A DNA stretch of 64,000 bases from Xanthocytophaga agilis (lineage in GTDB: Bacteria > Bacteroidota > Bacteroidia > Cytophagales > 172606-1): NCBI RefSeq assembly GCF_030068605.1, contig NZ_JASJOU010000002.1:558001-622000 (forward strand), read 5' to 3'. The notes beneath the pieces were generated by a model, which saw only the letters and a program-made list of their open reading frames with translations, made no database searches and was not told the DNA's origin. Within the stretch, counting starts at the first letter, position 1. The number at the start of each line of letters is the position of its first letter. Positions 24,183 to 42,902 of this stretch are shown here, in pieces. The translations under genes and the position numbers were made by a program.

Positions 24183-25310
24183 TCAAGCCGTTACAATCTC
24201 CTTCTCATCTGTATCTTTCTCCTGCGGAGGCCTTCTATGCCAATAAGATGCCAGAATTGAACCTGTAATATTCATAACCGGACCAAAAACAGCTGGTGCT
24301 AAGCCCAAGGTTGCAGTCTTTCCCATTTCTTTCGCCAACCCAGAAGCCAGCCCTCCATTTTGCATACCTACTTCAATGGCAATTGTACGGCAATCACGTT
24401 CACTCAATTTGAAGGCGCGTCCCAGCCAGTATCCCAGAAAATATCCGCTCGTATTGTGAATCAATGTACAGGCGATCAGTGCAGGTCCAATCTGCAATAA
24501 GTTGTTTCTACCAGAAGCGGTGATGATCACAATGATAAAGGCAATACCCAGCATAGATACCAGTGGCATTAGTTTATCCAGCCACTCCAGCTTTCCTTTG
24601 AGCAGTTTATTAAATAACAATCCGGCACCAATAGGTAGTATTACCATCTTGATGATATCCCACATCATAGCCAGTGCATCAACCTCAATGAATTCACCAC
24701 CCAGTATTTTCATCCACATAGGTGTCAGAAAGGGAGCCAATAACGTTGCAATAGCTGTTAATGTAATGGACAAGGCTAAGTTTGCTTTTGCCAGATACGA
24801 CATCACATTGGAAGCCATACCGCAAGGCATACTTCCAATCAATACCACACCCGCGGCAATTTCAGGCGGAAAGCCAAAAACCTTTGCTAATGTAAATCCC
24901 AGCAGAGGCATTAATGTAAAGTGTCCCAACAAACCACTGATTACAGCTTTGGGCATCTTAGCAACACTGGCAAAATCCTTTACTCCCATCTCCGTTCCCA
25001 TTCCAAACATGATAATCTGAATCAATGGAGTGATTAAAGCTGTAAGCGTAAAATTATTTACTTTAATAAAGTATTGCGGATAATACAAAGCTGTTGTAAC
25101 AGCAGCAAAAATCATCAGGGTATAGGCAAACCCTTTCAACACATCATATCCCCGAAAGGCAATACCCAAGGCAGCAAAGAGTATAATAACAACAGGACCA
25201 GCCTCTGCTAACCTCCCCATTACTATCATAACCAAGGTGGTCAGAAAGCTGATTCCAGCTATACTCCAAGCAATTATATTCCGATACTTTTGTCCAGCAG
25301 TAGAAACCAT
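24183..25310 (-). CDS. Bile acid:sodium symporter (BASS) family transporter
   Basis: The 375-residue inner-membrane protein has about nine or ten helices. Family signatures are present: GSMPCGMASNVMSYLAKAN near residue 160 and IAIEVGMQNGGLASGLA near residue 315, the crossover regions that bind sodium and substrate. BASS members import bile acids, pantoate, 2-keto acids or pyruvate with sodium. As the last gene of locus B it is a good candidate to bring the acid produced in the periplasm into the cytoplasm. It starts 48 bp after the RraA-like gene stop. Confidence 0.9.
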   Translation of the reverse strand: MVSTAGQKYRNIIAWSIAGISFLTTLVMIVMGRLAEAGPVVIILFAALGIAFRGYDVLKGFAYTLMIFAAVTTALYYPQYFIKVNNFTLTALITPLIQIIMFGMGTEMGVKDFASVAKMPKAVISGLLGHFTLMPLLGFTLAKVFGFPPEIAAGVVLIGSMPCGMASNVMSYLAKANLALSITLTAIATLLAPFLTPMWMKILGGEFIEVDALAMMWDIIKMVILPIGAGLLFNKLLKGKLEWLDKLMPLVSMLGIAFIIVIITASGRNNLLQIGPALIACTLIHNTSGYFLGYWLGRAFKLSERDCRTIAIEVGMQNGGLASGLAKEMGKTATLGLAPAVFGPVMNITGSILASYWHRRPPQEKDTDEKEIVTA

Positions 25311-25358
25311 AGATTAAAAATTCTTAAATAAACAGGTGTGTGTTTTTCTCAGGTGAAG

Positions 25359-26279
25359 TTACCAAGTACGTTTTTTCATAAACTCATCGAGTTGAGCTCG
25401 AGTCATTTTCAGTTCTCCAGGATGTTGGTCCAGCCACTTTAGGAAATCCTCTTTAATTTTATCAGTCCATTCATTATCAATCTGACCTGTACTGTATTTT
25501 CCTGTCTTCAACATCTCATGACCAAATTTATCCCGCAGACCAATGAACTCAGCAGTAGAGATTACTTTCTCAGCCATATGTGCAGGAATAAATAATACCC
25601 CTTCCCGCTCTGAAATAACCAGATCGCCAGGTAGTACAATGGCGCCTCCAATTCGGATAGGAGTATTAAGCCCCATCAATACTACATCTTTTAAATAGGA
25701 AGGATCAAAGTCCCGTACAAAGGCATTGAATCCTTTAATCTGAGCTAACCCTTGTAAATCCCGTGCAGCCCCATCAAAGATGACACCATTGTGAGATTTG
25801 GCATAAATTGAGTTTCCCAGGTTGTCTCCGATCAATGTTCCTTCAGCGATTTTCCCAAAACAATCTGCTACATACACATCACCTGGAGTCAGCATGTCAA
25901 TAGGCCAGGCATTGGTATTGCCAACACGTCCCTGCTTCTGTCCTCTCTCCTTGATTTTTTTCTCCACATCTGGGCGACTAGGCATAAACATAGCTGTTAA
26001 TGCACGCCCAACTACAGGGACATCATCATGCACCATCTTCCAGTTTCTTTCAAACTGACATGTGTATCCTTCATTATTCAATACCTGCCAGGCTTCTTCA
26101 ATTCCAACCTTTTTGGCCCTTTCTATCAGATCATCGGGTATTTTGGGGCGACCATCCGAAAAGCGTTCACCCTTCCATTCGGAAGTCAGATAGATTAATT
26201 CATCACGTGTGATTGTCTGAGCAGAAGCGCCATATACACAGTATAATAAAAGTATTGTGGCGAGGACTTTTTGTAACAT
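25359..26279 (-). CDS. Exported RraA-like protein (HMG/CHA-aldolase superfamily)
   Basis: The 306-residue protein has a Sec signal peptide (MLQKVLATILLLYCVYGASA, residues 1-20). The RraA fold shows ALTAMFM, the GDN motif at 151-153 and GVIFDGAARD with Arg173-Asp174. These match the metal-binding and substrate-binding residues of 4-hydroxy-4-methyl-2-oxoglutarate/oxaloacetate-type aldolases, but the acidic residue usual three positions after Asp174 is a Gly here, so aldolase activity is not certain. RraA proper inhibits RNase E in the cytoplasm, which the signal peptide argues against. Within locus B it would be the aldol-cleaving or decarboxylating step. Confidence 0.87.
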   Translation of the reverse strand: MLQKVLATILLLYCVYGASAQTITRDELIYLTSEWKGERFSDGRPKIPDDLIERAKKVGIEEAWQVLNNEGYTCQFERNWKMVHDDVPVVGRALTAMFMPSRPDVEKKIKERGQKQGRVGNTNAWPIDMLTPGDVYVADCFGKIAEGTLIGDNLGNSIYAKSHNGVIFDGAARDLQGLAQIKGFNAFVRDFDPSYLKDVVLMGLNTPIRIGGAIVLPGDLVISEREGVLFIPAHMAEKVISTAEFIGLRDKFGHEMLKTGKYSTGQIDNEWTDKIKEDFLKWLDQHPGELKMTRAQLDEFMKKRTW

Positions 26280-26365
26280 GTGTTCTGATTAATTGGTAGA
26301 GTCAGGTAAGTATAGATATTGAGAAGCAGAATGATATTTTTATAGATCACTCTGAAAATGTTTTT

Positions 26366-27514
26366 TTATTTCAAAAACAGTTGTTGTACACATACAGCCA
26401 TAGGAACCTTGGTTTCCCATCCTGTATAGGTAAGCTTGCCAGTAGCTTTATCTCGTTTGAAAACAACTACATTATCATTATCACGATTGGTAACAAATAC
26501 CAATTCGCCTTTTGCATCTACACAGAAATTTCTTGGATGTCCTCCATGTGTAGCCTCATGACCTACTACAGTCAGCTTTCCGGTTTGAGGATCTACTTTG
26601 TAAATTGCCAGACTATTATGACCACGATTGGAAGCATATAAAAATTTGCCATCAGGTGAGAAATGGATATCCGCTGCATAACTTTTCTCTGTAAAGTTTT
26701 CAGGTAACATGGTTACCTGCTCTACAGGAGTAAGGCCACCTGTTGCTTTATCCACCTTATATACAGCGACTTTTGAAGACAATTCTTCAGCGGAATAGGC
26801 AAAATTACCATTGGGATGAATAGCCAGGTGACGAGGTCCTGCACCAGGTACACTTGCAGCAAAAGGTTTTGATGCTGGGGATAACTTACCTGTGGTAGGA
26901 TTCACTGCATAAATCATAATCTTATCTAATCCCAGATCAGTAGCATAAATCCATTTGCCATCGGGAGATGGTATAATAGAATGCATATGTGGCCCTTGTT
27001 GTCTGGCAGGATTCACACTTTTTCCCTGATGTTGTATAACATCTGCAACTTTACCAACACTTCCATCTTTCTGGATAGGATAAACAGACAAGCTCCCTGT
27101 GCCATAATTGGAAACATAAATAAATCGACCTTTAGGATCTATACTAACATGACAGGGATCGCTGCCTTCTGATGGTTGTTCATTACCTAACTTTGTCAGT
27201 TTCCCAGTAGCAGAATTGATCTGATAGGCAATTACACTTCCATTCTTGCTTTTAGTCTCTACACCTTTCCCATAAATAGCATACAAGAACTTTTTGTTAG
27301 GATGAATAGCCAGAAAAGACGGACCTGCTCCATCACCCACTGTTTGTAGTTCGGATATTTTACCATTCGCCCGGTCAAAGTTTAAGACATAAATACCCTT
27401 ACTCCCCCGATCGGCAAAAGTGCCTATATAGAGAATCTCCTTAGAAGATGCAGATTGAGCAATGCTACATAGGTTTGCCAGCAGGCAAAGAGTTACAAAT
27501 ACTATTCTTTTCAT
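26366..27514 (-). CDS. Exported lactonase-family beta-propeller (6-phosphogluconolactonase-like)
   Basis: The start at 27514 (MKRIVFVTLCLLANLCSIAQ) provides a signal peptide; a longer in-frame start 180 bases upstream would bury it. The 382-residue protein is a seven-bladed propeller of the lactonase family: recurring segments such as PSFLAIHPNKKFLYAI, PCHVSIDPKGRFIYVSNYG and GPRHLAIHPNGNFAYSAEE, each about 50 residues apart. The family includes 6-phosphogluconolactonase and muconate-lactonizing relatives. Here an exported form would open a sugar lactone made by the neighbouring dehydrogenase. Confidence 0.9.
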   Translation of the reverse strand: MKRIVFVTLCLLANLCSIAQSASSKEILYIGTFADRGSKGIYVLNFDRANGKISELQTVGDGAGPSFLAIHPNKKFLYAIYGKGVETKSKNGSVIAYQINSATGKLTKLGNEQPSEGSDPCHVSIDPKGRFIYVSNYGTGSLSVYPIQKDGSVGKVADVIQHQGKSVNPARQQGPHMHSIIPSPDGKWIYATDLGLDKIMIYAVNPTTGKLSPASKPFAASVPGAGPRHLAIHPNGNFAYSAEELSSKVAVYKVDKATGGLTPVEQVTMLPENFTEKSYAADIHFSPDGKFLYASNRGHNSLAIYKVDPQTGKLTVVGHEATHGGHPRNFCVDAKGELVFVTNRDNDNVVVFKRDKATGKLTYTGWETKVPMAVCVQQLFLK

Positions 27515-27623
27515 AAAAACTAGTAAAATTTGAATCAGAAAATCAAAAATAGCCGGAAAAAACAATTTCCCTCTGATTCGTTTATGGAAACTGTCTGGTG
27601 TTAGTCTCTTTATGTGAATAAAT

Positions 27624-27654
27624 GGATCTCTGTATAGTACATATACAGAGATCC
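27624..27654 (-). other. Intercistronic hairpin (dehydrogenase-lactonase)
   Basis: Perfect 13-bp stem (27624-27636 with 27642-27654), 5-nt loop, between the dehydrogenase stop and the lactonase start. The following minus-strand bases are only weakly T-rich, so it may be a partial terminator or an mRNA-stability element. Confidence 0.55.
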
Positions 27655-27674
27655 AGCAGGTATAGATTATTTTA

Positions 27675-29483
27675 TCAGTTTTCACTGGTGGCAACAGCTC
27701 CTTTGCCAGCTGTCTTACGCACCTTATTTACCTCTTCTGGGGTAATGGCACTAGCCTTATTTCCAAAATTCTTTCTGATAAAAGTCAATACATTGGCAGC
27801 ATCCTCATTACTTAGAAAACTATGCTGAGGCATCAGATTATTATAGGGTTTACCCTTTACTTCAATAGGGCCTTCCAGTCCATTAAGCAATACTTTGATC
27901 AATCTTTCCTTATCTCCAACTACCCATTCTGATCCACCCAATGGAGGAAAACGTTGTGAATCTCCACGTCCATTTTGCTGATGACATGCAATACAATAGG
28001 TGTCAAATACTTTTTGACCAGCCACTATCAGCCCACTTGCTTTTATAATATCTTTCTGTTGATCAGGCGTACGGATAGAAGATACAAGTTTTCGTTTTTC
28101 CATAGAGGCCAACTGTTCCTTGCCAAAATTTTGTTTATCGCCTTTGTACATAATACGCCATACCTTACCCTTTTCCGTTTCTGATATATATAAGGAACCA
28201 TCTGGTCCCATAGCTATACCCATAGGCCGGTAAATAGCATCACTTACATTAACGATAGGATCAACTTTGGCAAAGCCATCTGCAAAGACTTCCCACTCCC
28301 CACTAGGCTTTCCATTTTCAAATGGAACAAAAGCTATAAAATAACCAGATTGAGGATAAGGAGCCCGGTTAGTAGAACCATGAAAAGCAATGAAAGCGCC
28401 TTTCTTATAATGTTCCGGAAATTGATTGCCGGTATAGAAAAACAAATCATTGGGTGCCCAGTGTCCAGGAAAGCCTATAAGTGGTTGTTCCAGACTATCA
28501 CCTTTGGCTACTAAATCCTGATGACCTGCATACTCAGGGTTGATCACTTTCTTCTTTTTTATCTGATCATAGTAGAAATAAGGCCATCCACCATCCATTC
28601 CCTTTTGGACACGGAAAAATTCTTCTGCCGGAAGTACAGCACTTTCCCAAGGTGAGTATTTTTCAGACCACAAACGCAACAGATCATCTCGTCCATGTTG
28701 TACCAGATACAAATTATTATCATCTGTATTCCAATCCATGGCAACAACACTGCGTAAACCTGTTGCATACTTCACTCCATCTTTCTGGGTTTGTCCTACC
28801 TTATTAGCATCAAACTGCCACACACCACCATGATCTTCCAACAACGGACAAGGATAAATACCAGGTGATCCTGGAGTACGATTACTCTCCTGACAGGAAT
28901 TGGATGGCGCCCCAAAAGGCACATACATATGTCCATTATTATCAAACGTTATTGGTTTGGCAATGTGCTCATGCATTCCATGTGGATGATCATCTTCCAG
29001 AATGACTTCCTGAGCACCTTCCGGAACGAGTTTGCCGGGAGTCAGCTTATAACGGAAAACAGTCAGTTCAGAGGTAAAATATAAATAGCCATTGTATACA
29101 CGCATAGCTGTTCCATATCCTCTCTCACGCCCTGATCCACCAAAGAGTTTTATCACATCTGCTTTTCCATCCTGATTGGTATCCCGTAAAGCGATAACCG
29201 AACTATCTTTTCCGCCATATCGGGCTTTTACATACACATCGCCATTGTCACTTACTGCCAGTTGCCGGGCTTTACCATCCAGACTATCTACCACCACCAC
29301 AGCTTCAAAGTTTTGTGGAAGAAAAAGCCCGCCATTATCAGGGTCGCCTTCAGGTAAGGATTGTTTGTCAGTACATGCCGTGATTATGCTTAGCATAATA
29401 ATAAGTGCACACACACTCCATCTATGAAAAAAAACAGATGGCCAGGAACAGAATAAATAGTTATTCATAGTAAAGAATTTCAT
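27675..29483 (-). CDS. Sorbosone/glucose dehydrogenase-type lipoprotein fused to cytochrome c
   Basis: The 602-residue protein has a lipoprotein signal (LSIITAC, Cys near residue 37; an alternative ATG lies five codons in). Residues about 50-440 form a PQQ-dependent sorbosone/glucose dehydrogenase-type propeller (GYGTAMRVYNGYLYFTSE, GLRSVVAMDWN, then PMGIAMGPDGSLYISET). A C-terminal cytochrome c domain carries heme motif CIACH at 497-501 and a methionine-rich MPQHSFL axial-ligand segment. It should oxidise a sugar at the cell envelope and pass electrons to the respiratory chain. It lies 70 bp after amidohydrolase copy 1. Confidence 0.88.
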   Translation of the reverse strand: MKFFTMNNYLFCSWPSVFFHRWSVCALIIMLSIITACTDKQSLPEGDPDNGGLFLPQNFEAVVVVDSLDGKARQLAVSDNGDVYVKARYGGKDSSVIALRDTNQDGKADVIKLFGGSGRERGYGTAMRVYNGYLYFTSELTVFRYKLTPGKLVPEGAQEVILEDDHPHGMHEHIAKPITFDNNGHMYVPFGAPSNSCQESNRTPGSPGIYPCPLLEDHGGVWQFDANKVGQTQKDGVKYATGLRSVVAMDWNTDDNNLYLVQHGRDDLLRLWSEKYSPWESAVLPAEEFFRVQKGMDGGWPYFYYDQIKKKKVINPEYAGHQDLVAKGDSLEQPLIGFPGHWAPNDLFFYTGNQFPEHYKKGAFIAFHGSTNRAPYPQSGYFIAFVPFENGKPSGEWEVFADGFAKVDPIVNVSDAIYRPMGIAMGPDGSLYISETEKGKVWRIMYKGDKQNFGKEQLASMEKRKLVSSIRTPDQQKDIIKASGLIVAGQKVFDTYCIACHQQNGRGDSQRFPPLGGSEWVVGDKERLIKVLLNGLEGPIEVKGKPYNNLMPQHSFLSNEDAANVLTFIRKNFGNKASAITPEEVNKVRKTAGKGAVATSEN

Positions 29484-29553: not shown

Positions 29554-30816
29554 CTAATGCTTAGCAGGAGGAGCCGAGGGTAAAACTATTGGATCTGTAA
29601 TCCCATTCAGGTCATAGACTACTTTGCCTGCCCGGATGGTCAGTTCACACTCTAGCTTTTGTTTACCTGTCACTTTATAGCCTGTTTTGTCAAAGAAACC
29701 AAAATCACCTTCTCTCATAGAAAAAACAGCTACATCAGCCACAGCACCCTGCGAAAGATGTCCGAGTTCTTCACGTTTGATCGCTTGAGCTGATGCCCAT
29801 GTACTAGCTTTGATCACAGATGGCAGGTCCATACCCATATTCAAAAACTTCGACATTACACTAAGCTGGTCTTTCATCGAGCCATTCATGCTTCCGGTAT
29901 GCAGATCGGTGCTGATGGTATTTGGGAAAAATCCGCTTTTCAAAGCAGGTATAGCCTGAGAATAATTAAAACTTGTGCCACCATACCCTACATCAAAAAT
30001 AATCCCTCTCTTTTGTGCTTCCCATACAAATGGCTTTACCTTTTTTGTTGTTTCGTCTACTACCGATTCGCGACCATTTAGTAAAGCATAGGTATGAGTG
30101 TAAATATCTCCAGGACGTAGGTGTTTCATAAACAGTTCCTCAATCGGCAAAGGAGGTACACTCCCGCCAAAGTCAATCATAACAGGAATATTGGCTATTT
30201 TTCCTGCCTCTACCGCACGATCTACCGGCGTCCATTCCGGACCACTAAAATGGGCTACTTTTATACCTACCACATAATTTTTATTGCCTCGTGCGACCAA
30301 AGCCGTCATCTTGGCATCCATATCCTGTGTATTCTGCTCATAGGGACCACCACGCATACCTTCCCCTACTATGTTTAATAGAGACAAAACCCGGGTTTGT
30401 GAATGATCGATAACATTATTTTTAAAGGTTGGAAAAGATTTCCAGCCTGCACCGCCAGCATCGACAATGGTTGTTACACCTACCCGAAACGTAAATCCGT
30501 CTGGCGGCACAGCTACAAATCCGTTGCTCAGATAATGGTCAGGCTCAGTACCAAAGAACACATGTCCATGAATATCAATAAGTCCGGGCGTCACATACAT
30601 ACCTTTGGCTTGTACTACTTGACGGGCTTGCTTTTCTGGTATGCTCTTAGCAACCTTAGCGATAGTATCAGCGTTAATAGCAACATCCATTACCCCATTG
30701 ATACCATTTTTGGGATCTATAACATGACCTCCTTTGATCAGCAGACTATATGTCTGTGCATGAAGTGTAACAATGCCTATACACAGACACAAAAAAAGAG
30801 ATAGAACTTTCCTCAT
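29554..30816 (-). CDS. Exported amidohydrolase/deacetylase, copy 1
   Basis: The start at 30816 (MRKVLSLFLCLCIGIVTLHAQ) gives a signal peptide. The mature enzyme is a metal-dependent amidohydrolase of the EF_0837/DgaE-associated deacetylase type: HGH at residues 83-85, carbamylated Lys186 in GIKVAHF, His241 in YTHTYALL and a later STDLHTGS Asp. Such enzymes remove N-acyl groups or hydrolyse related amide bonds, and in Firmicutes they lie beside a SelA-like PLP enzyme. Two long blocks are identical at the nucleotide level to copy 2 at 32215-33483. Two bases separate its ATG from the preceding relic frame. Confidence 0.88.
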   Translation of the reverse strand: MRKVLSLFLCLCIGIVTLHAQTYSLLIKGGHVIDPKNGINGVMDVAINADTIAKVAKSIPEKQARQVVQAKGMYVTPGLIDIHGHVFFGTEPDHYLSNGFVAVPPDGFTFRVGVTTIVDAGGAGWKSFPTFKNNVIDHSQTRVLSLLNIVGEGMRGGPYEQNTQDMDAKMTALVARGNKNYVVGIKVAHFSGPEWTPVDRAVEAGKIANIPVMIDFGGSVPPLPIEELFMKHLRPGDIYTHTYALLNGRESVVDETTKKVKPFVWEAQKRGIIFDVGYGGTSFNYSQAIPALKSGFFPNTISTDLHTGSMNGSMKDQLSVMSKFLNMGMDLPSVIKASTWASAQAIKREELGHLSQGAVADVAVFSMREGDFGFFDKTGYKVTGKQKLECELTIRAGKVVYDLNGITDPIVLPSAPPAKH

Positions 30817-30818
30817 GA

Positions 30819-31031
30819 TTAACAAATGACAGGATAAGAATCAAAAAATAAGATACTTCTATACCTCTGGTTGTATATGTACACCAGATTCTGTAAAATA
30901 ATCTCTATAGAGGAGAGTTTCTGCATTAGCAGGATTGTGTCTTTACCCAGTATAAAGTTGGAACACCCCATTAGGTATCCTACAAATGGTAGGGAGGATA
31001 ATTGTTTCAGTAGTTTTCTTCGATTTAACAT
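30819..31031 (-). pseudogene. Relic of a second SelA/DgaE-like PLP-enzyme gene (N-terminal leader only)
   Basis: A 70-codon frame begins MLNRRKLLKQLSSLPFVG, which lines up with the leader of the intact PLP-enzyme gene at 34826 (MLSRRKLLQRLSSFPLLG): 13 of the first 22 residues are identical. After about residue 25 the similarity stops and the remaining residues look random. It stands directly before amidohydrolase copy 1, exactly where the intact gene stands before copy 2. The best reading is a tandem duplication in which the body of this copy was deleted. It could still be translated as a short peptide. Confidence 0.6.
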
Positions 31032-31459: not shown

Positions 31460-32200
31460 TTATTCAAAGATCCATGTACCAAATTTCTGGTACTCATGAA
31501 AGCTAGCCTTTCTATTTGGGTAAACACTCACTTTTGACCAGGTCCATGTTGTATATACCTTATCATAATCAATCCGATAAAGATTTCCCCTCCAGTGATC
31601 TCCTGATTTTGGAGAAGCAGAAACAAGAGGACTCAATAAACGATAAGGAATAAAGAATTCGGCAGTCCATCCGGTAACACTTGCCAGCGATTTTCGTGTA
31701 CCACCTTGGATAGTAGTTGCATGTTGTGTCCTTTGTTTCCTCTCATAAAACGCAGGTAGCCAACCATTCAGTCTTCCGTTTATATTGGGTATAAGAAGTG
31801 GTAGTTCATAATTAAGAGGTGAAAGTTCATATTCAAAATAGATAGGAACAGAAGGATCTGGCCACAGAAAAACTTCAACGACATCCTCATTAAACAAGGC
31901 TCCAAAATCCTTTTCTATGGTTGCGGTTAGCTTTTGATCCTGGCATTGAAAGAGAAAATACAATCCTGTATCTGAATACAAGAGTTTTACCAATGTGGAA
32001 GAAGAATCACCTGCAGATTCCAGCACAGGAATCTTTATCCATTCCGTTTTTTCCCAGCTTTTAGATTTTCCATCTCCAGTAATAGTAAAATCACTGGTTT
32101 TTCGGATAACAGTCTTTGTAGAATCATCTACAAAAGCAAAAACGTCAGAGGAAAACACATGTAACAATCCAAAAAACGAAGCGAGAAAAAAGAAGCGCAT
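31460..32200 (-). CDS. Exported CBM9-like carbohydrate-binding protein
   Basis: The 246-residue protein has a signal peptide (MRFFFLASFFGLLHVFSSDVFA). The mature part matches the carbohydrate-binding family 9-like fold: FTITGDGKSKSWEKTEW at the start, LLYSDTGLYFLFQCQD, then LFNEDVVEVFLWPDP, and GWTAEFFIPYRLL plus WRGNLYRIDYD near the end. These domains bind the reducing ends of sugars or act as stand-alone accessory modules. It starts 14 bp after amidohydrolase copy 2, so both are on one mRNA, and it is consistent with a carbohydrate-derived substrate for locus B. Confidence 0.85.
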   Translation of the reverse strand: MRFFFLASFFGLLHVFSSDVFAFVDDSTKTVIRKTSDFTITGDGKSKSWEKTEWIKIPVLESAGDSSSTLVKLLYSDTGLYFLFQCQDQKLTATIEKDFGALFNEDVVEVFLWPDPSVPIYFEYELSPLNYELPLLIPNINGRLNGWLPAFYERKQRTQHATTIQGGTRKSLASVTGWTAEFFIPYRLLSPLVSASPKSGDHWRGNLYRIDYDKVYTTWTWSKVSVYPNRKASFHEYQKFGTWIFE

Positions 32201-32214: not shown

Positions 32215-33483
32215 TTAGTGTTTAGTTGTAGATTGTCCGGAACCAGATTCTGCCTGAACGGCAATCCCATTCAGGTCATAGACTACTTTACCTGCCCGAA
32301 CCGTCAGCTCGCATTCCATTTTATATTTTCCATTTATTTTGTAACCTGTATAATCAAAGAAACCAAAATCACCTTCTCTCATAGAAAAAACAGCTACATC
32401 AGCCACAGCACCCTGCGAAAGATGTCCGAGTTCTTCACGTTTGATCGCTTGAGCCGACGCCCATGTACTAGCTTTGATCACAGATGGCAGGTCCATACCC
32501 ATATTCAAAAACTTCGACATCACATTAAGCATATCTTTCATCGAATGATTCATACTTGCTGTGTGAATATCTGTGCTAATTGTATTTGGGAAAAAACCAC
32601 TTTTCAAAGCAGGTATAGACTGTGCATACGAAAAACTGATCCCCCCATACCCTACATCGAAGATGATTCCTTTTTTCTGTGCTTCCCATACAAATGGCTT
32701 CACCTGATTAGTAGTCAAATCCACAATAGGTTCACGACTCCCTAAACGTGCAAAGCAATGAGTAAAGATATCACCAGGACGTAAGTGTTTCATAAATAAT
32801 TCTTCAATCGGCAAAGGAGGTGTGCTACTACCAAAATCAACCATAACAGGAATGTTGGCTATTTTTCCTGCCTCTACCGCACGATCTACCGGCGTCCATT
32901 CTGCACCTATATAATGTGCTACTTTTATACCTACTACATATTGCCGATACTGACGTGCCACACTTGCTGTCATCTTGGCATCCATATCCTGTGTGTTCTG
33001 TTCATAAGCTCCGCCTCTCATGCCTTCTCCTACTATATTCAGCAATGCAAGTACCCGCGTCTGTGAATGATCAATCGTTTGATCTTTAAATGTTGGAAAT
33101 GTCTTCCAACCTGCACATCCTGCATCGACAATAGTTGTTACACCTACCCGAAACGTAAATCCATCTGGTGGTAATGCATCAAAACTATTGCTCAGATACC
33201 GTCCTTTCTCAGTACCAAAAAAATTGTGTGTATGAATATCAATAAGCCCAGGCGTCACATACATACCTTTGGCTTGTACTACTTGACGGGCTTGCTTTTC
33301 TGGTATGCTCTTAGCAACCTTAGCGATAGTATCAGCGTTAATAGCAACATCCATTACCCCATTGATACCATTTTTGGGATCTATAACATGACCTCCTTTG
33401 ATCAGCAGACTATACGTCTGTGCATGAACATTTCCAGCCCATAAGCAAGCCAGAAGAATCAAAAACTGTAATTGTATCCGCAT
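32215..33483 (-). CDS. Exported amidohydrolase/deacetylase, copy 2
   Basis: The 422-residue paralogue of the gene at 29554 has signal peptide MRIQLQFLILLACLWAGNVHAQ. Metal ligands are kept: HTH at residues 84-86, Lys in GIKVAHY, His in IFTHCFARL and Asp in STDIHTAS. Blocks 33251-33414 and 32354-32454 are identical at every base to copy 1, while the middle differs at many residues, including substrate-pocket positions (HTHNFFG versus HGHVFFG). The copies may accept different N-acyl substrates. It starts 119 bp after the PLP-enzyme gene, with a 12-bp hairpin between. Confidence 0.88.
   Translation of the reverse strand: MRIQLQFLILLACLWAGNVHAQTYSLLIKGGHVIDPKNGINGVMDVAINADTIAKVAKSIPEKQARQVVQAKGMYVTPGLIDIHTHNFFGTEKGRYLSNSFDALPPDGFTFRVGVTTIVDAGCAGWKTFPTFKDQTIDHSQTRVLALLNIVGEGMRGGAYEQNTQDMDAKMTASVARQYRQYVVGIKVAHYIGAEWTPVDRAVEAGKIANIPVMVDFGSSTPPLPIEELFMKHLRPGDIFTHCFARLGSREPIVDLTTNQVKPFVWEAQKKGIIFDVGYGGISFSYAQSIPALKSGFFPNTISTDIHTASMNHSMKDMLNVMSKFLNMGMDLPSVIKASTWASAQAIKREELGHLSQGAVADVAVFSMREGDFGFFDYTGYKINGKYKMECELTVRAGKVVYDLNGIAVQAESGSGQSTTKH
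32354..32454. repeat. 101-bp block identical to 29690-29790
   Basis: Every base of 32354-32454 in amidohydrolase copy 2 matches 29690-29790 in copy 1, including synonymous positions. Flanking coding sequence differs. Confidence 0.9.
33251..33414. repeat. 164-bp block identical to 30587-30750
   Basis: Every base of 33251-33414 matches 30587-30750; the next base differs (c versus t) and identity then resumes for about 13 more. It encodes the first mature residues of both amidohydrolases. Confidence 0.9.
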
Positions 33484-35024: not shown

Positions 35025-35486
35025 TTAGATATAGGCAATGCAATCCATTTCTACCAATGAATCACCCGGAACGCCACCATATACTGCAACAGTAGTACGG
35101 ACTGGAGGCTTATTGCCAAAACGGCCTTTGAAAACTTCGTTCATGGCTTTATAATCATTCAGATCATGCAGAAACACACTTACTTTCAACACTTTTTCCA
35201 TAGAAGAGCCAGCTTTCTTCAATTCTGCCTCAAGTTCTTTCAGTACGTGATCAGTATGTGCTTTAATATCACCTTCAAAGTGAGCACCTTTCCCTGCTAT
35301 AAATACCAGATTGCCAAATTTAGTTGAACCAGAGAACAATGGCACATCATCATACATGGTTACATTGTTTACTTCTTTTTCTGGTGAGACTTCTTTTACA
35401 GATGCCTTAGCCGTTAGACCAACTCCTGCAATGCCGGCCACTGAGCCAATGATTCTTTTCAGGATAGATCGTCTTTGTGTTGTCAT
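35025..35486 (-). CDS. Exported RidA-family enamine/imine deaminase
   Basis: The 153-residue protein has a Tat-like leader (MTTQRRSILKR to about residue 28) and a YjgF/RidA domain with Arg130 in PPVRTTVAV and Glu146 in LVEMDCIAY, both conserved for imine hydrolysis. RidA normally detoxifies 2-aminoacrylate-type enamines in the cytoplasm. An exported one next to a PLP ammonia-lyase gene suggests it hydrolyses the enamine that enzyme makes in the periplasm. It is the first enzyme gene after SusD in locus B, 332 bp downstream. Confidence 0.88.
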   Translation of the reverse strand: MTTQRRSILKRIIGSVAGIAGVGLTAKASVKEVSPEKEVNNVTMYDDVPLFSGSTKFGNLVFIAGKGAHFEGDIKAHTDHVLKELEAELKKAGSSMEKVLKVSVFLHDLNDYKAMNEVFKGRFGNKPPVRTTVAVYGGVPGDSLVEMDCIAYI

Positions 35487-35818: not shown

Positions 35819-37414
35819 TTATTTATCCCACCAAAGAGGTGTACCAGGCGAGTCACTTCCATCCAGTAAACTTTTGGCTGCTTCTACAGCGGCGCCATTA
35901 CTTTGTGCATCACTTGTCAGGAAAGGCAGACGTTTAATCAAAACATTTGCTGGTAAATCGGCATTATCTGAATTTATACGGTCATAGAGCTTCAATTGAT
36001 CTGAGCGACGCAAATCAGCCCATGCCTCCACCCCATCTGGATATAGAGCCACCCATTTCTGGATGGCAATCTGTATCAATTGTGTTGTTTTGTCACTTGC
36101 CCACTTAATAGGTGTATTGGATAGTGCAGCAGAATGAACAGCATCATCTGGTGCGATAGGGGTATTAGAACTGTTGATATATGAAGCTATGGAATTTTCA
36201 TCTGTGATACCCCATTGAATTAATGAAGCACGAATTCCTTTCCCATATAACTCCTGTGCAGTTCCACCCATATTCCAGCCAAGTAAAGCACCTTCTGCAC
36301 GAATGAAGTATGCCTCAGCGCTATGCATGATATTCTGCGGACGAGTTAAAGCTGCAGTATTGGTAAAATTATCACCGTTCAACAAAGGCCCGGAGTTGGA
36401 ATTGTCATCAGCACTGTTACCAGATAAAGTAGACAATTCCGTGCTGCTATACCCATTACGTAATCCTTCATAAGTACCTGTTTTTACAGATGGAGAATAA
36501 TACTTCCCTATACGCGGATCATCATATCCTTTCAACACAGATTCCATAGCTGCACTCATTCGAAACTCTCCCCAACTGGATATATACGCTAATCCATTGG
36601 CATCTCCGTTCAGGTTGGGCTTATCCATATAGGCATCATCCTGTGGAACACTGTATGTTCCTGCAGTTTCCATTACTCCTGCAGCTACGGCTTCTTCTGC
36701 TTTTTGCCTGGCAAGTTTTGGTTCAACCTTTGAAACCCGCATAGCCAATCGTAGCTTAAGCGTATTACCAAACTTGATCCATTTGCTAATATCCCCATGA
36801 TAAATCAGATCATAGGGCCCATAGGTAGAAGCCTCACTGGTAACGGTTATTAAAACGGCCAGTGCCTCATCCAGTTTCTTAAAGAAATCATTATATATCT
36901 TATCCTGTGCGTCATAAGGGACAGACTCTGTACCGTGTCCAGCGCTAAAATATGGGATTGGTCCATAATAATCCGTGGTACGATGAAAAGTCCACACCCA
37001 CCAAATCTTTGCAATGGCATGTTCGGCAGAAGTAGAGTCTGTATTCGCCATAATAGACAACAATTGAGGAACCGTACCCACATATACCTGTGACCATTGT
37101 GTAGTAATCCAATCCTGGCGTATAACATATCTATCTGAATTAAAATAGGTTGCGGTAGTAGCAAAATATTGAGCATATAAATCTGCAAACAGATTTTGTG
37201 CGGTTTGATAATTTATACCTGTGTATGATGCAGCAGACTGTGCTTTTGATAACAAGAAGCCTATTTCACGTATTCCTACTTCAGACAACCCTGTCTTGCT
37301 TGTATTCATTTTATCAAAATTACCTGTACAGCTTAACATCCCAAGGAACAAGATAAGTCTAGATAGAAGTGATATTCCACATTTGCGAATTCTCTTAGTT
37401 ATTACATCTCTCAT
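35819..37414 (-). CDS. SusD/RagB-family nutrient-binding outer-membrane lipoprotein (locus B)
   Basis: The 531-residue lipoprotein has a signal ending LFLGMLSCTG (Cys near residue 29). It belongs to the SusD-like_2 type: INYQTAQNLFADLYAQYF near residue 65, IWWVWTFHRTTDYYGPIPY near 140, TLKLRLAMRVSKVEP near 220 and WVALYPDGVEAWADLRRS near 460. It forms the lid of the SusC channel encoded upstream and binds the imported ligand. It starts 39 bp after the susC stop. This subfamily differs from the SusD of locus A, so the two loci take up different ligands. Confidence 0.92.
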   Translation of the reverse strand: MRDVITKRIRKCGISLLSRLILFLGMLSCTGNFDKMNTSKTGLSEVGIREIGFLLSKAQSAASYTGINYQTAQNLFADLYAQYFATTATYFNSDRYVIRQDWITTQWSQVYVGTVPQLLSIMANTDSTSAEHAIAKIWWVWTFHRTTDYYGPIPYFSAGHGTESVPYDAQDKIYNDFFKKLDEALAVLITVTSEASTYGPYDLIYHGDISKWIKFGNTLKLRLAMRVSKVEPKLARQKAEEAVAAGVMETAGTYSVPQDDAYMDKPNLNGDANGLAYISSWGEFRMSAAMESVLKGYDDPRIGKYYSPSVKTGTYEGLRNGYSSTELSTLSGNSADDNSNSGPLLNGDNFTNTAALTRPQNIMHSAEAYFIRAEGALLGWNMGGTAQELYGKGIRASLIQWGITDENSIASYINSSNTPIAPDDAVHSAALSNTPIKWASDKTTQLIQIAIQKWVALYPDGVEAWADLRRSDQLKLYDRINSDNADLPANVLIKRLPFLTSDAQSNGAAVEAAKSLLDGSDSPGTPLWWDK

Positions 37415-37453
37415 ACTAATTCAGACAAGACAAATTGGAAGAGTTCTCTCAAT

Positions 37454-40400
37454 TTAAATTGACAACTTCAGATTTAAACCAAAGCTACGTGTAGATGGCA
37501 GGTTGCCATATTCTATCCCCTGCAAATTGCCGTTCCCCAGATTCATCTCCGGATCAAACCACATTTTACGTTTGCCAATGCCAGGAATATCCAAAATAGA
37601 ACTACCTCGATAGATAAAGAACAAGTTACGGGTTATGAAGGAAAGTTTAGCAGCTTTCAGAAAACCTTTACCTACTTTAAACTCATATCCCAAAGCCAAC
37701 TCTCTTACACGAAAGTTTGTAGCATCATAGGTAAAGAATTCTCCCCAGGCATAGCGACCAGTAGAAACTGTAGTCCAGAAAATTTCAGCATTAATATCCT
37801 TTGTATTTTCAGAGTAGGTACCATCTGCATTTGCTACAACAGCATTCAATACCAAGCCACCCTCTCTATATTTGGTGGTATAGTCACTATTTCCATCATA
37901 GGCCAGGTTTTGGTCTGAGCCGGAAACCATAATGCCGCCATATCTTCCATCAATAAGAACCCGAAGAGAAACATTTTTATAGGTAAGGGTATTTGTTAAA
38001 CCAGCCATGAACTTTGGATTATAATTACCCAATACCTGACCAGCAGAGGTATTTCCAACAGGTTTTCCGGATGCATCTACTACAAACCGTCCATCTGTAG
38101 TTCTTTGCCAGGTATATCCCTCCAAATCACCATAATGGCCACCCTCAGCAGCAACAGCAATAGCAGATCGTATGACAGTTCCGCCCAGATATGACTTTTT
38201 CACTTTCTGAGATAGTGACAAAATAGTGTTTATATTTCGGGCATAATTCAATGCGATATCCCAGGTAAAGCCATTTGATTTTTTAACAGGTGTAGCATTT
38301 AGAACTATTTCCAACCCTTTATTTTGAATATTACCTGCATTTATATACTGACTTTCATAACCGGAGGGAACTGGAAGACTTAATGTCAGCAACTGATTGA
38401 TTGAGTTTGTTTTGTAATAGGTTGCATTAACTCCTACTCTGTTATTCCAAAACTGAGCTTCAATGCCCATTTCAATATTTTCCGTAATTTCAGGTTTCAG
38501 ATCAGGAATTGCTTTGGTTGTACTACGGCTGATGAATCCCTGTCCAATAGCGCCACCCTGACTATATTCATAGATATTCTTTAACATATATGGGTTAGCC
38601 CCATTCCCAACCTGAGCATAGGAAATACGTCCTTTCAGAAACGAAAATACGTCTGGTAACTTTACTATGTCTGAAATTACACCTGTTAACCCAACAGATG
38701 GATAAAAAAAGGAATAGGGAGCTGGTAAAGTGGATTGCCAATCGTTACGTCCACTGAAATCGAGGAATAAATAATCTTTAAATGCTAATTGTCCTGTAGC
38801 AAATAAAGATTGTGTTTGTCGCTTAGAATAATCTTGATCTGTTACAATGGCTGTTGCAAAAGCTAAATTAAACCGGTTTGGAATATTAAGGCCATTGGCG
38901 GTGTTGCTATTTATCTCATACCCTTGTGTATTGACAATACCACCTAGTGTATAATTTAATCTAAGATTTTCGTTCAATCGATTATTCCCAGTCACCATCA
39001 GATCATACCAGTTTTCATAGACGGATGTATAGTTAAGGCTATATGCACCTCCATCAGAAGTAGCCCATATTGTTGTATTGGCAGGTCCAATGGTTTCAAT
39101 ACGATCTGTATAATTATCCCGACCAGCACGTCCCTGAATAGTTAACCAATCTGTTAATTGATATTTTACCAGAATAAATCCATTAATACGATTTCGTGTC
39201 TCATTGTGGTTGTAGTCATTTGTCATCCAGTAAGGATTGCTATAAATAGAAGAAGTTGTCCAGTAATGGGGTTTTGCAATGCCTTTATCATTTAGTACAG
39301 AATAGTTCTTTATATCATTCAGAAGAATGCTTCGGGGTATTTTATAAATGTCAATAACCGGAGCATTCTGTTCTCCGGTTATTACCACATGATCTATTTT
39401 CTGGTTAGTGTAAGTGATCTTAGCATCTGTAGATAATTTCTTTGTAATCTGTGAGCCCAATCGTAAATTAAGTATATGACGTTGCAGATTATTGTTGGGA
39501 ATAATTCCCCTAGCGGCGTTATTAGAATAAGAAATATAGGTATTTATCTTCTCTGAACCTGCTGTTACACCTACTGAGTTACTTAATGAGACGGCATTGC
39601 GAAAAAAGTCTTTTACATTATCTGTTTGTGGTGTTAACCTAGCCTCATTTCCAGTCCAGTCGGTTACTATTTGTCCTTTCATTGTGGGCCCCCAGCTGGA
39701 AGCTCCGTTTCCCACAAAAGTACCAGCAGTACCTTGTCCATATGTATTCTGCAATTTAGGCAGTGTAAAAACAGACTCAACAGTAGTTACTGAATTAAGA
39801 TCTACAGCAACCTTGCCATCCTTCCCTTTTTTAGTTGTAATCAGGATAACACCATTTGCAGCACGGCTTCCATACAATGCAGCCGCAGAAGCTCCCCTCA
39901 GAACTGTTATGGTTTCAATATCATCCAGGTTAATAGTTGATGCTCCATTTATTCCATTTGTTCCACCAAAGTCACTGGTAACAGCTCCTCCGGGAGTAGA
40001 ATTATCAATAGGTATTCCATCAATCACATATAACGCATCATTTGAACCTTGGATAGAACGATTTCCACGCAATATAATGCGTGTCGCGCCACCCACACCT
40101 GAACCAGAAGACGTTACCATCAAACCTGCTACCTTTCCCTGTAATGTATTGGCAAAGTTAGGATCACGTACTTCATTTATTTCCTCTAACGTTACTTCCT
40201 GTGTAGCATATGTTAACGAACGTTTTTGACGCGGAATACCCAATGCGGTCACAACCACCTCTCCCAATGACTTTACATCTTCAAAAAGATTGACATCAAC
40301 TGTAGTACGGGAACCTACAATAATCTCTTCTGTCGTGTACCCAACAAATGAAAATACCAGTACACTATCTTCAGCAGGTACAGCTATGGAATATTTACCA

Positions 40401-40906
40401 TCTATACTTGTTATGGTACCTAAATCAGTACCTTTAACTATCACACTAACTCCTGGAAGTAATTCATTCTGATTATCTCTCACTATACCTTGAATCGTTG
40501 TAGCAATAGCTGTATTTTCTTTTTTCTGAACCCTGCTATGTGATGATGCTGTTGCCTTTTCCATCTCCTGGATTACATACACATTGTTGACCTTTTTGTA
40601 TGTCAGTTTTAAAGGATGAAGAAGCTGATCGAGACAACGATCCAGATTTGTACAGGAAGCCAGATTTATTTCAGCAAATTTTCCTTCAAGATTCTTTTTC
40701 TGATAGGCAAAGTTAACATGATATATTTCTTCCAAATCCTGTAGAATACGTATCAGAGATTGTGGTTGAACAGTCCTGTGTATACTTTGTTGTTTGCCAA
40801 ACGTATCTGAAAATGCTAGATCCCGGGCTGTCACTTTAGAAAGTAATGACAAACAGAGCCATAGAAATACAAAAACTCTTACCCTATTTGGTGGAGTTTT
40901 ATTCAT
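37454..40906 (-). CDS. SusC/RagA-family TonB-linked outer-membrane transporter (locus B)
   Basis: The 1150-residue protein has a signal peptide to about residue 27, an STN domain (about 45-112, LIRILQDLEEIYHVNFAYQ), a carboxypeptidase-D-like module (about 135-210, IQGIVRDNQNELLPGVSV), a plug domain (TLQGKAAG-like block TLQGKVAGLMV, then DALYVIDGIPI) and a barrel ending RSFGLNLKLSI. It carries the STN signalling domain like its locus A counterpart and should trigger the FecR/sigma pair directly upstream when ligand binds. Confidence 0.95.
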   Translation of the reverse strand: MNKTPPNRVRVFVFLWLCLSLLSKVTARDLAFSDTFGKQQSIHRTVQPQSLIRILQDLEEIYHVNFAYQKKNLEGKFAEINLASCTNLDRCLDQLLHPLKLTYKKVNNVYVIQEMEKATASSHSRVQKKENTAIATTIQGIVRDNQNELLPGVSVIVKGTDLGTITSIDGKYSIAVPAEDSVLVFSFVGYTTEEIIVGSRTTVDVNLFEDVKSLGEVVVTALGIPRQKRSLTYATQEVTLEEINEVRDPNFANTLQGKVAGLMVTSSGSGVGGATRIILRGNRSIQGSNDALYVIDGIPIDNSTPGGAVTSDFGGTNGINGASTINLDDIETITVLRGASAAALYGSRAANGVILITTKKGKDGKVAVDLNSVTTVESVFTLPKLQNTYGQGTAGTFVGNGASSWGPTMKGQIVTDWTGNEARLTPQTDNVKDFFRNAVSLSNSVGVTAGSEKINTYISYSNNAARGIIPNNNLQRHILNLRLGSQITKKLSTDAKITYTNQKIDHVVITGEQNAPVIDIYKIPRSILLNDIKNYSVLNDKGIAKPHYWTTSSIYSNPYWMTNDYNHNETRNRINGFILVKYQLTDWLTIQGRAGRDNYTDRIETIGPANTTIWATSDGGAYSLNYTSVYENWYDLMVTGNNRLNENLRLNYTLGGIVNTQGYEINSNTANGLNIPNRFNLAFATAIVTDQDYSKRQTQSLFATGQLAFKDYLFLDFSGRNDWQSTLPAPYSFFYPSVGLTGVISDIVKLPDVFSFLKGRISYAQVGNGANPYMLKNIYEYSQGGAIGQGFISRSTTKAIPDLKPEITENIEMGIEAQFWNNRVGVNATYYKTNSINQLLTLSLPVPSGYESQYINAGNIQNKGLEIVLNATPVKKSNGFTWDIALNYARNINTILSLSQKVKKSYLGGTVIRSAIAVAAEGGHYGDLEGYTWQRTTDGRFVVDASGKPVGNTSAGQVLGNYNPKFMAGLTNTLTYKNVSLRVLIDGRYGGIMVSGSDQNLAYDGNSDYTTKYREGGLVLNAVVANADGTYSENTKDINAEIFWTTVSTGRYAWGEFFTYDATNFRVRELALGYEFKVGKGFLKAAKLSFITRNLFFIYRGSSILDIPGIGKRKMWFDPEMNLGNGNLQGIEYGNLPSTRSFGLNLKLSI

Positions 40907-41085: not shown

Positions 41086-42090
41086 TTAAACCTGTTTCTG
41101 ATGCAATATGATCTCTGTATTTTTCCTGGTTACTGTTATTTTAAGCATTGCACTAAGTACATCCAATAAAACCTCAATGTTTCCCTGAGGAATTCTTGCT
41201 GTAATTTTTTGCTGAGCCAGTGATTGGTCTGCAATTCTTACTTTCACACCAAAATAATCTTCTATGGTTTCTGCAACTTTACTCAATGGTTCATCATCAA
41301 AGACAAAAAAGTGGTTTTGCCAGGCAGTACACGCTTTGCCATCCACAGAATGTACTGTTATTTGCTTATCAGACAAATTGTATTCGGCCATCTGCCCTGG
41401 TGCTAGCAAAAGATTTTCAGTGTTTGAAGTGAGTTTTACTTTTCCAGATTGTAAATAGACTTCAGCCTGGTTTCGTCTGGCATTCACATTGAATTTAGTA
41501 CCTAGTACTTCTATATTTAATTTATGAGGAGTATTTACTATAAAACGTTTGTGATCAGGAGTATGCACAACTTCAAAAAAAGCCTCCCCATCAATATACA
41601 CAATGCGTTCTGATTGCCTCTTCCAATGATGACCATACAAATACACTTTCGAATTGGTATTTAAAGTAATTCTGGAACCATCAGGCAACTGAATACTCTT
41701 TGTTTGTCCATACCCTGTTTTATATGTTATTAGCTCATCTTTTTCAGGTGATATTGAATATTTCCACCACAAACCAGCTACTATCAACATACCGATTCCT
41801 ATACAGGCAGCCGCATATTTCCATACAGGCAGACTTAGTCTTGAATTTTGTTCGTTATTTCGCTTTAACTGATGCCAGACTTCCAGATAATAAGTATTTG
41901 CCGTATGATCTTCCGATAACCCGGCCAATTTTATCAATTCTATCGCATCGTTGACTTCTTTTTGCTTCTGAGGATTTGTAGCAAGCCACTCTTCCCAGAA
42001 CTGATTTGTATCAGCATCTGGATTCAGAACCCATTGCTGGAATTGTTCGTCAAGGGCAAAATCTTCTGAGGTATAGTATAGATATTTCAC
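41086..42090 (-). CDS. FecR-family anti-sigma factor (locus B)
   Basis: The 334-residue protein has an N-terminal sigma-binding region, a single membrane helix near residues 88-105 (YAAACIGIGMLIVAGLWW), a FecR domain (YGQTKSIQLPDGSRITLNT to IEVLGTKFNVNARR) and a C-terminal DUF4974 module (FVFDDEPLSKVAETIEDYFGV). It should receive the STN signal from the SusC of locus B and release the sigma factor. It lies 179 bp before susC and 161 bp after the sigma gene. Confidence 0.93.
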   Translation of the reverse strand: MKYLYYTSEDFALDEQFQQWVLNPDADTNQFWEEWLATNPQKQKEVNDAIELIKLAGLSEDHTANTYYLEVWHQLKRNNEQNSRLSLPVWKYAAACIGIGMLIVAGLWWKYSISPEKDELITYKTGYGQTKSIQLPDGSRITLNTNSKVYLYGHHWKRQSERIVYIDGEAFFEVVHTPDHKRFIVNTPHKLNIEVLGTKFNVNARRNQAEVYLQSGKVKLTSNTENLLLAPGQMAEYNLSDKQITVHSVDGKACTAWQNHFFVFDDEPLSKVAETIEDYFGVKVRIADQSLAQQKITARIPQGNIEVLLDVLSAMLKITVTRKNTEIILHQKQV

Positions 42091-42251
42091 TTATCTGGCT
42101 TTTCTACTAAACGAGTCATCATGAATTATCTAACCTGATTTTCTCATTTTTTACTAAGATGATTTTATACTGTGCAAAAAAAGAAATATTTTTTTAAAGA
42201 AGGATATTTGAGGAGGCTACGTTTGAACTTTTTCAGTCACAAAACAATCGA

Positions 42252-42902
42252 TTACTTTATAGTAAGGATTGATACTACTATAACCCAGATGATATCAGAT
42301 AAAGAAAGTTGCTGACGAAGATTTTTTAATGTTTTAAAAACAGAATTATAGACAGATTGAATAGTTATTCCAAGCTCATCAGCAATCTCCTGATTAGACA
42401 GATTTTTATAAAATTTTAGCTGGAGTAATCGTTGCTGATGATCCGAAAGTCTATTTATAGCATTTAGTACCTTCTCTCTTTGTTCAGTAGCATTTTCATC
42501 TTCACTATCTGTTGCTAGCTGTAACTCACTTTCAGACCACTCACCTTTCACTTCCGTCCGCATCTGAGCTGATTTAAGTGTATCAAGCAATTTACGCTTT
42601 AATGCTGTAAGTAAGTAGTAACGTATAGATGTGGTTTGAGATAAATTTTCCCGGTTATTCCATATCTTGATAAAAACATCCTGTATGGTATCCTTTACCA
42701 ACTCCGAATTGTCACATATTTTTTTACCATACTGATACATACTGAAGAAGTTTTGCCTATATAGTATTGCATAGGCTTCCATATCACCATCTCTAAAATC
42801 ATTCCACAATTTGTACTCCACAGATGTATTTCCATTCTGTAAGTAGCTTGCAGAAATCGAACTCTCTTCCTGTTTAAGATCATGGTTGCTTAAAAGATGC
42901 AT
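42252..42902 (-). CDS. ECF RNA polymerase sigma factor (locus B)
   Basis: The 216-residue ECF sigma factor has region 2 at about 30-95 (LWNDFRDGDMEAYAILYRQ, then LVKDTIQDVFIKIWNNR) and region 4 at about 145-200 (QRLLQLKFYKNLSNQEIADE, then IQSVYNSVFKTLKNLRQ). A strongly hydrophobic C-terminal helix follows (IIWVIVVSILTIK). It is predicted to activate the SusCD genes of locus B. It diverges from a membrane-protein gene across 577 bp. Confidence 0.93.
   Translation of the reverse strand: MHLLSNHDLKQEESSISASYLQNGNTSVEYKLWNDFRDGDMEAYAILYRQNFFSMYQYGKKICDNSELVKDTIQDVFIKIWNNRENLSQTTSIRYYLLTALKRKLLDTLKSAQMRTEVKGEWSESELQLATDSEDENATEQREKVLNAINRLSDHQQRLLQLKFYKNLSNQEIADELGITIQSVYNSVFKTLKNLRQQLSLSDIIWVIVVSILTIK

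Follow-up and report, generated by a model that had tools for sequence, protein, structure and literature searches.

The DNA analysed here is a 64,000-nucleotide stretch of the genome of Xanthocytophaga agilis, a soil-type bacterium (assembly GCF_030068605.1, contig NZ_JASJOU010000002.1, positions 558,001-622,000 of the forward strand; hereafter the window). At window positions 24183-42902 its minus strand carries a set of 13 genes that we read, with somewhat better than even confidence, as an inducible unit that breaks down an N-acetylated 2-amino sugar outside the cytoplasm, the probable substrate being N-acetylglucosamine (GlcNAc) or one of its epimers. The central member is a pyridoxal phosphate (PLP) enzyme related to DgaE, which forms a conserved unit with an amidohydrolase and RidA. 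What is new here is that this PLP enzyme, judged from its alignments, lacks both the phosphate-site arginines and the active-site histidine pair of DgaE. The genes of the unit, with the evidence for each assignment, are as follows:

42252..42902, minus strand: extracytoplasmic function (ECF)-type sigma factor, SigE (open reading frame, ORF; homologues precede SusC in relatives; family by sequence and context)
41086..42090, minus strand: FecR-type anti-sigma factor (ORF; homologues adjoin SigE; family by sequence and context)
37454..40906, minus strand: SusC-type TonB-dependent transporter (ORF; homologues adjoin SusD in relatives)
35819..37414, minus strand: SusD-like outer-membrane lipoprotein (PF12741, E 6e-119)
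35025..35486, minus strand: RidA with a twin-arginine translocation (Tat)-like leader, Arg-130 and Glu-146 kept (PF01042, E 3.2e-20)
33603..34826, minus strand: DgaE/SelA-like PLP enzyme with a twin-arginine leader, Lys-244 kept (TIGR01437, 174.1 bits, cut-off 385.3)
32215..33483, minus strand: amidohydrolase AH2 of the PRK09237 family, Sec-type leader (NF006689, 453.5 bits, cut-off 371)
31460..32200, minus strand: CBM9-like protein, predicted to be exported (PF06452, E 1.9e-7)
29554..30825, minus strand: amidohydrolase AH1, a paralogue of AH2 (NF006689, 450.2 bits, cut-off 371)
27675..29483, minus strand: pyrroloquinoline quinone (PQQ)-type sugar dehydrogenase (GSDH) propeller with cytochrome c, lipoprotein-like N terminus (PF07995, PF00034)
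26366..27514, minus strand: seven-bladed lactonase, Sec-type leader (PF10282, E 1.3e-121)
25359..26279, minus strand: RraA-like protein (class II pyruvate aldolase-type), Sec-type leader (PF03737, E 1.2e-16)
24183..25310, minus strand: BASS-family transporter (PF01758, E 3.3e-41; NF047939 (PanS), 234.5 bits, below its cut-off of 400)

The initial annotation had placed these 13 genes on one strand, and the ORF list confirms every one of them. The families it named were recovered for the ten genes scanned with Pfam and NCBIfam hidden Markov models; the sigma factor, FecR and SusC were assigned from sequence and neighbours. The lactonase ORF as listed (26366-27694) is over-long, a Sec-type start (MKRIVFV...) lying at 27514. 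In Xanthocytophaga flavus, the nearest named genome in our collection, all 13 genes recur with their order unchanged and an identity of 90-99%.

Related loci were collected by a scan with the window's PLP enzyme, and the 74 loci described below rank highest among 380 candidates; Dyadobacter accounts for 28, and 15 named genera are represented overall. These loci are partly non-independent, as the members of L005/L068 and of L007/L069 share a contig and overlap there, and the pairs L006/L052, L009/L041 and L015/L018 each come from a single genome. A same-strand run was defined as the genes around the PLP gene with gaps below 400 bases. Such runs contain an amidohydrolase in 71 of the 74 loci, RidA in 66 and both in 65, which bears out the proposal of neighbourhoods conserved across Bacteroidota. 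The remaining genes are found in fewer runs: the dehydrogenase in 49, CBM9 in 32, SusC in 31, the lactonase in 21, BASS in 19 and RraA in 11. The 400-base rule splits L001, the copy of the window's own set, at its 643-base gap between CBM9 and AH1, and its dehydrogenase, lactonase, RraA and BASS genes thus fall outside the run counts; counted by locus, RraA is present in 13/74 and BASS in 21/74. Gene order varies between genera, so the linkage has survived rearrangement, and in far relatives (L098, L101) the PLP enzyme, amidohydrolase, RidA, RraA and BASS genes still stand together. A phylum-wide draw found the PLP enzyme in 8/395 genomes at E 1e-60, the source genome included.

The PLP enzyme belongs to the Aminotran_5/SelA group, has TIGR01437 as its best NCBIfam match and can be aligned over almost its whole length with DGL/DgaE (PDB 7lc0). 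Row counts given here and below include the window's own copies, after removal of ORFs shorter than 380 residues (2/90 PLP and 2/89 amidohydrolase ORFs). The Schiff-base lysine, Lys-244, is kept in 89/89 rows. Docking to DGL places the phosphate of the substrate near Arg-301, Arg-332 and Arg-346, and its carboxylate near Arg-226 (PMC9529869, available text). At the columns of the three phosphate arginines (positions 341, 372 and 384 here), arginine occurs in 0/89 rows, each column being occupied by other residues (Thr/Ser/Val/Tyr/Ala/Phe at 341, Gly/Met/Val/Ile/Phe/Ala at 372 and Trp/Phe/Gly at 384). The Arg-226 column holds lysine in 79 and arginine in 10 of the 89 rows. In the printed alignment, the PDB relative 8t7j reads arginine at each of the three phosphate positions. 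The absence of all three arginines from the enzyme described here suggests that the substrate is an unphosphorylated sugar acid, in agreement with the earlier claim that no phosphorylation step is needed. Membership in the DgaE family proper was considered and rejected, given the TIGR01437 score of 174.1 bits against a cut-off of 385.3 and the missing phosphate arginines and His-162/His-163 pair. For 8JE0, 8T7J, EF_0837 and Oant2987, no relevant paper was found in the literature searched.

The loop that holds His-162/His-163 in DgaE differs as well. Position 189 is histidine in 43 and asparagine in 42 of the 89 rows, position 190 is never histidine, and positions 190-194 are free of histidine in the 21 rows of alignment A1; two alignments place the loop two residues apart, and the His-His pair is absent in both. 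In steady state the H163A variant of DGL retains full activity, but it sets the enamine free, to be protonated in solution (PMC9529869, available text). Enamine release from a DgaE-type enzyme missing His-163 would explain a RidA partner, and we infer that the PLP enzyme releases an enamine and that RidA completes the reaction. RidA itself keeps Arg-130 and Glu-146, which we take to be its active-site arginine and glutamate, in 78/78 rows.

The eight proteins encoded between SusD and BASS all begin, by eye, with export-type N termini, Tat-like in RidA and the PLP enzyme and Sec- or lipoprotein-like in the other six. For the first two, the leaders claimed by the initial annotation are strongly conserved: Arg-4 and Arg-5 of the PLP enzyme are invariant (89/89 rows), and RidA has Arg-5 in 78/78 and Arg-6 in 76/78 rows. 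With a twin arginine ahead of a hydrophobic stretch and a tatC match over cut-off in the source genome, both are candidate Tat substrates. A home-made scorer, for which the SigE and FecR ORFs served as cytoplasmic controls, returned a Tat-type call for 72/77 RidA ORFs and 81/88 scored PLP ORFs (2 PLP ORFs at contig edges were unscored), compared with any signal call in 0/44 SigE and 0/42 scored FecR ORFs (4 at contig edges). The scorer also flags the membrane protein BASS in 21/21 cases and therefore cannot separate a leader from a first membrane span, and it scored the window's own PLP enzyme as 'none', the hydrophobic stretch falling under the threshold although the twin arginine is visible. 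In distant loci, the twin arginine is kept in 7/7 PLP ORFs, and 2/6 RidA homologues of L098-L103 have Arg-Lys in its place. Calling an exported PLP enzyme unusual was fair, but the case is not without precedent: PvdN of pseudomonads is a Tat-exported PLP enzyme. In the literature searched, no title or abstract was recognisable as describing the export of a DgaE-like enzyme or of RidA in Bacteroidota, a weak negative given the sparse coverage of subscription journals.

The structure of the dehydrogenase was predicted with AlphaFold2, because its PDB sequence matches cover mostly the cytochrome domain. The model (mean pLDDT 75.7, 15 sequences) finds its best propeller matches in the AA12 pyranose dehydrogenases 6jt5 and 6i1q, at Z 34.2, and superposes on 6jt5 over 356 residues with a root-mean-square deviation of 2.6; other PQQ sugar dehydrogenases score Z 24-31 and unrelated propellers about 22. 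The predicted fold of this domain is an AA12-like propeller, with PQQ as the putative cofactor. An AA10 lytic polysaccharide monooxygenase (LPMO) was considered as the source of the oxidised sugar acid and set aside, as PF03067, the one LPMO family searched, gave 0/16 matching genomes (the source genome and 15 relatives), with a positive control in 1/14.

The context of the gene set in a few relatives points to amino sugars. Genes for GH20 glycoside hydrolases occur in 4/74 loci (three confirmed by Pfam, that of L014 by clustering); the one in L071 is placed upstream, and that of L013 separates SusD from RidA. In the two Chryseolinea loci L011 and L015, a GH18 gene comes after DUF5009. Genes of the DUF5009 type are present in 7/74 loci, 5 of which have them on the opposite strand. 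The L020 set is preceded by a GntP permease and also has a GH29 fucosidase. The source genome holds six GH20 matches, one of them partial, outside the window. The neighbour scans covered 30 of 616 unassigned ORFs, chosen non-randomly and in part as glycoside hydrolase lookalikes; for this reason we claim no rate for such genes and, as GH29, GH43 and GH9 were also met, regard the glycan link as suggestive only. The amino-sugar proposal of the initial annotation thus gained contextual support, its substrate and enzyme activities being predicted. As a separate observation, the set in Spirosoma is separated from a GH20 gene by two genes for oxidoreductases dependent on flavin adenine dinucleotide (PF12831; L012:14323-16050 and 16111-17835).

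From these elements a route can be proposed whose substrate, reaction order, RidA hand-off, and RraA and BASS roles we infer. GlcNAc or an epimer, freed from chitin-like or other glycan material, would cross the outer membrane through SusCD, its presence being signalled by FecR and the sigma factor. In the periplasm, the PQQ-type dehydrogenase would oxidise C1 to give a lactone, with its own cytochrome c as electron acceptor; ring opening would fall to the lactonase and removal of the acetyl group to the amidohydrolases. The Tat-exported DgaE-like enzyme would then eliminate water and release an enamine, whose hydrolysis by the Tat-exported RidA would yield ammonia together with a 2-keto-3-deoxy sugar acid such as 2-keto-3-deoxygluconate (KDG). 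In the source genome, RraA may split this KDG-type acid into pyruvate and glyceraldehyde; uptake of the 2-keto acid would go through BASS. The interpretation given by the initial annotation, which had this entire sequence run outside the cytoplasm, is partly supported. A fuller reading, with even the C-C cleavage outside the cytoplasm, ammonia and acetate set free in the periplasm, only a small 2-keto acid imported, and a lyase without proton donor that depends on an exported RidA, we think rather unlikely.

The terminal steps are where an alternative has most to offer. In this alternative, to which we give slightly less than an even chance, the core route leads to the 2-keto-3-deoxy acid as proposed, but KDG is imported whole and is phosphorylated and cleaved inside the cell, RraA being no KDG aldolase; it is compatible with our preferred explanation, which leaves RraA open. 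D-X20-R-D is the metal and catalytic motif of RraA-like class II pyruvate aldolases, and the window's protein has it as D152-X20-R173-D174 when aligned to 3noj. Across the alignment, Asp-152 is kept in 5/14 rows and replaced by serine in 9/14, which speaks for KDG import, and for this reason RraA was rejected as a certain aldolase; its active site, named earlier as a weak point, is indeed one. The same alternative is favoured by the presence of RraA in only 13/74 loci, by an eda-type 2-keto-3-deoxy-6-phosphogluconate aldolase that scores over cut-off elsewhere in the source genome, by the GntP gene beside the set in L020, and by the KDG kinase of the Ong pathway (PMC9537276, available text). 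It is opposed by the pairing of RraA with BASS in 11/11 runs and 12/13 loci (the exception being L009), by the retention of Arg-173/Asp-174 in 14/14 rows and by a Sec-type leader in 13/13 ORFs given by the home-made scorer. Since RraA is present in 13/74 loci and BASS in 21/74, the two form an optional module, and the cleavage and uptake steps are weaker than first claimed.

Several observations weigh against our preferred reading of an amino-sugar unit. An amidohydrolase or RidA is missing anywhere in 6/74 loci (L009, L018, L038, L052, L073 and L074), two of which, L038 and L052, are contigs shorter than 4 kb. The lactonase, BASS and RraA are found in few runs (21/74, 19/74 and 11/74). GH20 lies inside the PLP run in 2/74 loci and is absent from the window's unit, and GH43 (L073), GH9 (L016, opposite strand) and GH29 were met once each among the scanned neighbours. 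The searches for PQQ supply allow no inference: pqqC gave no match in the source genome but was silent in all control genomes too, and pqqE gave only below-cut-off matches in the source genome and in 14/14 controls. H163A DGL turns over stoichiometrically without RidA (PMC9529869, available text), so the missing histidine leaves the need for RidA unproven. The amidohydrolases are a further difficulty. Both exceed the PRK09237 cut-off and are 82% identical to each other, and the HxH motif (88/89 rows, one gap), Lys-187 (88/89), His-242 and Asp-305 (89/89 each) are kept, positions presumed to have the metal-ligand roles known for cog3964. The strand-5 histidine of Atu3266 (2OGJ) and 2ICS, at which 8JE0 aligns two residues off, is replaced by Asp in 85 of the 89 rows and by Glu in the remaining 4, and deacetylase activity can therefore not be assumed. 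At position 279, where 2OGJ and 2ICS have histidine, 76 rows carry Tyr and 13 carry His. Atu3266, of cog3964, acts best on esters of (R)-hydroxy acids and prefers acetyl-(R)-mandelate. A deacetylase function of AH1 and AH2 is thus putative and rests on family and context.

The relationship to Atu3266 would suit a unit for N-acyl or O-acyl D-amino or hydroxy acids, in which deacylation by the amidohydrolases is joined to deamination by the PLP enzyme and RidA, and the sugar dehydrogenase serves a separate step. The 25/74 runs without a dehydrogenase also fit such a unit. We nevertheless consider it improbable, since SusCD, the lactonase, CBM9 and, in few relatives, GH20/GH18 point to sugars. 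In addition, seven Niastella/Longitalea genomes have a set without the dehydrogenase; five of them encode a close one at another place (over 890 bits, no stops), and two have only weaker matches (605 and 510 bits) with internal stop codons.

The distribution of the amino-sugar genes also raises the question of whether one pathway or two are present. Niastella-type loci have the order RidA-PLP-AH-RraA-BASS, where AH stands for amidohydrolase, and Dyadobacter loci are commonly arranged as CBM9-lactonase-(SusCD)-PLP-AH-GSDH-cytochromes-RidA; the dehydrogenase is present in 2/13 RraA loci (L001, L020). Two further cytochrome c protein clusters, of which one member each was scanned, occur in 37/74 and 29/74 loci. 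The set in the window looks like a merger of the two types with a single PLP gene. It could represent two pathways that are partly separate and act on different epimers (for example GlcNAc and N-acetylgalactosamine acids), {RidA, PLP, AH, RraA, BASS} and {CBM9, lactonase, PLP, AH, dehydrogenase, cytochromes, RidA}, which have fused here and lost one PLP gene. That the sets occur apart in Niastella and many Dyadobacter, and that D. koreensis, Larkinella and Spirosoma have adjacent sets with two PLP genes, agrees with this idea. We hold it to be doubtful, as the source genome has a single PLP match for two amidohydrolases and the near-identical stretches of AH1 and AH2 argue against strongly different substrates.

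Some side observations concern the same families. At the DNA level, 60-base blocks of AH1 and AH2 are 58-60/60 alike at 61-240 and 57-58/60 alike at 961-1140, the remaining full blocks being 22-56/60 alike; in X. flavus a different stretch of the pair (401-500) is 96% alike, compared with 71% in the window. From these patterns, AH1 and AH2 look as if they are undergoing gene conversion. A second, longer, RR-led PLP enzyme type (L026:14096-15724, L035:13310-14941, L044:12948-14597 and L053:13804-15525), 33-35% identical, adjoins extra amidohydrolases and dehydrogenases. A second RidA-like family, predicted to be exported (PF14588/PF01042), lies beside the set in 11/74 loci, for example at L054:12550-13101. 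Upstream of the sigma gene, 43988-45667 is Rho-like and 46155-47297 resembles an MscS-type channel (both by eye), and the unit therefore ends there. Within it, the 634-base gap between AH1 and CBM9 (30826-31459) is free of minus-strand ORFs of 110 or more residues; the comparable gap of X. flavus measures 643 bases.

If our reading is correct, the non-phosphorylative breakdown of amino sugars moves to the periplasm in Bacteroidota of at least 15 named genera, its first oxidation is coupled to a cytochrome, and the oxidised amino sugar is made without an AA10 LPMO. Genes that now bear family names only would gain a pathway.

Among known systems, the AA12 PQQ pyranose dehydrogenases (6JT5, 6H7T, 6I1Q) share the propeller fold of the dehydrogenase, which differs in its C-terminal cytochrome c fusion and is about 19% identical. 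The cog3964/PRK09237 enzymes (Atu3266 2OGJ, 2ICS, 8JE0) share PRK09237 membership by score and the HxH, Lys, His and Asp positions with AH1 and AH2, which are instead predicted to be exported and have Asp, or Glu in 4 rows, for the strand-5 His of 2OGJ/2ICS. The Dga pathway of Salmonella for D-glucosaminate (PDB 7LC0/7LCE) uses the wider PLP family for the same ammonia elimination from a 2-amino sugar acid, but its substrate is phosphorylated on uptake by the phosphotransferase system (PMC9529869, available text); the enzyme described here, in contrast, has a Tat-like leader and lacks the three phosphate arginines and His-162/His-163.

The closest known system is the Ong pathway of the marine bacterium Pseudoalteromonas prydzensis ACAM 620 for the breakdown of GlcNAc1A from oxidised chitin (PMC9537276, PMC12017989), a counterpart to which the initial annotation made no reference. 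As far as the available text of these papers describes it, the logic is the same: a metal amidohydrolase deacetylates an N-acetyl aldonate, a PLP enzyme forms KDG by deamination with no phosphorylation beforehand, RidA is required for growth, and uptake is TonB-dependent; KdgK, the KDG kinase, follows (PMC9537276). The combination of a deacetylase-family enzyme, a PLP enzyme and RidA in one cluster is likewise found in the window. The two systems differ in location, as OngB and OngC are predicted to be cytoplasmic whereas the proteins here have export-type leaders, and apparently in the origin of the oxidised sugar, which is produced there by an LPMO, the AA10 family of which was not found in the 16 genomes searched here. 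They also appear to differ in deacetylase family, a comparison made indirectly, through family scores and D-aminoacylase structures. OngB is 46% identical to a D-aminoacylase (PMC9537276, available text), and on this indirect basis orthology with AH1 and AH2 was rejected, these being PRK09237 members to which D-aminoacylase structures match only over residues 21-123, at about 28 bits. OngC is described as a putative D-amino acid deaminase in the available text, and the window's PLP enzyme is of the Aminotran_5/SelA type with TIGR01437 as its match. The analysis bears on why growth on GlcNAc1A needs RidA: the available text of PMC9537276 reports OngD, the RidA of that pathway, as essential and leaves its role open, a question that our reading, if correct, would make testable.

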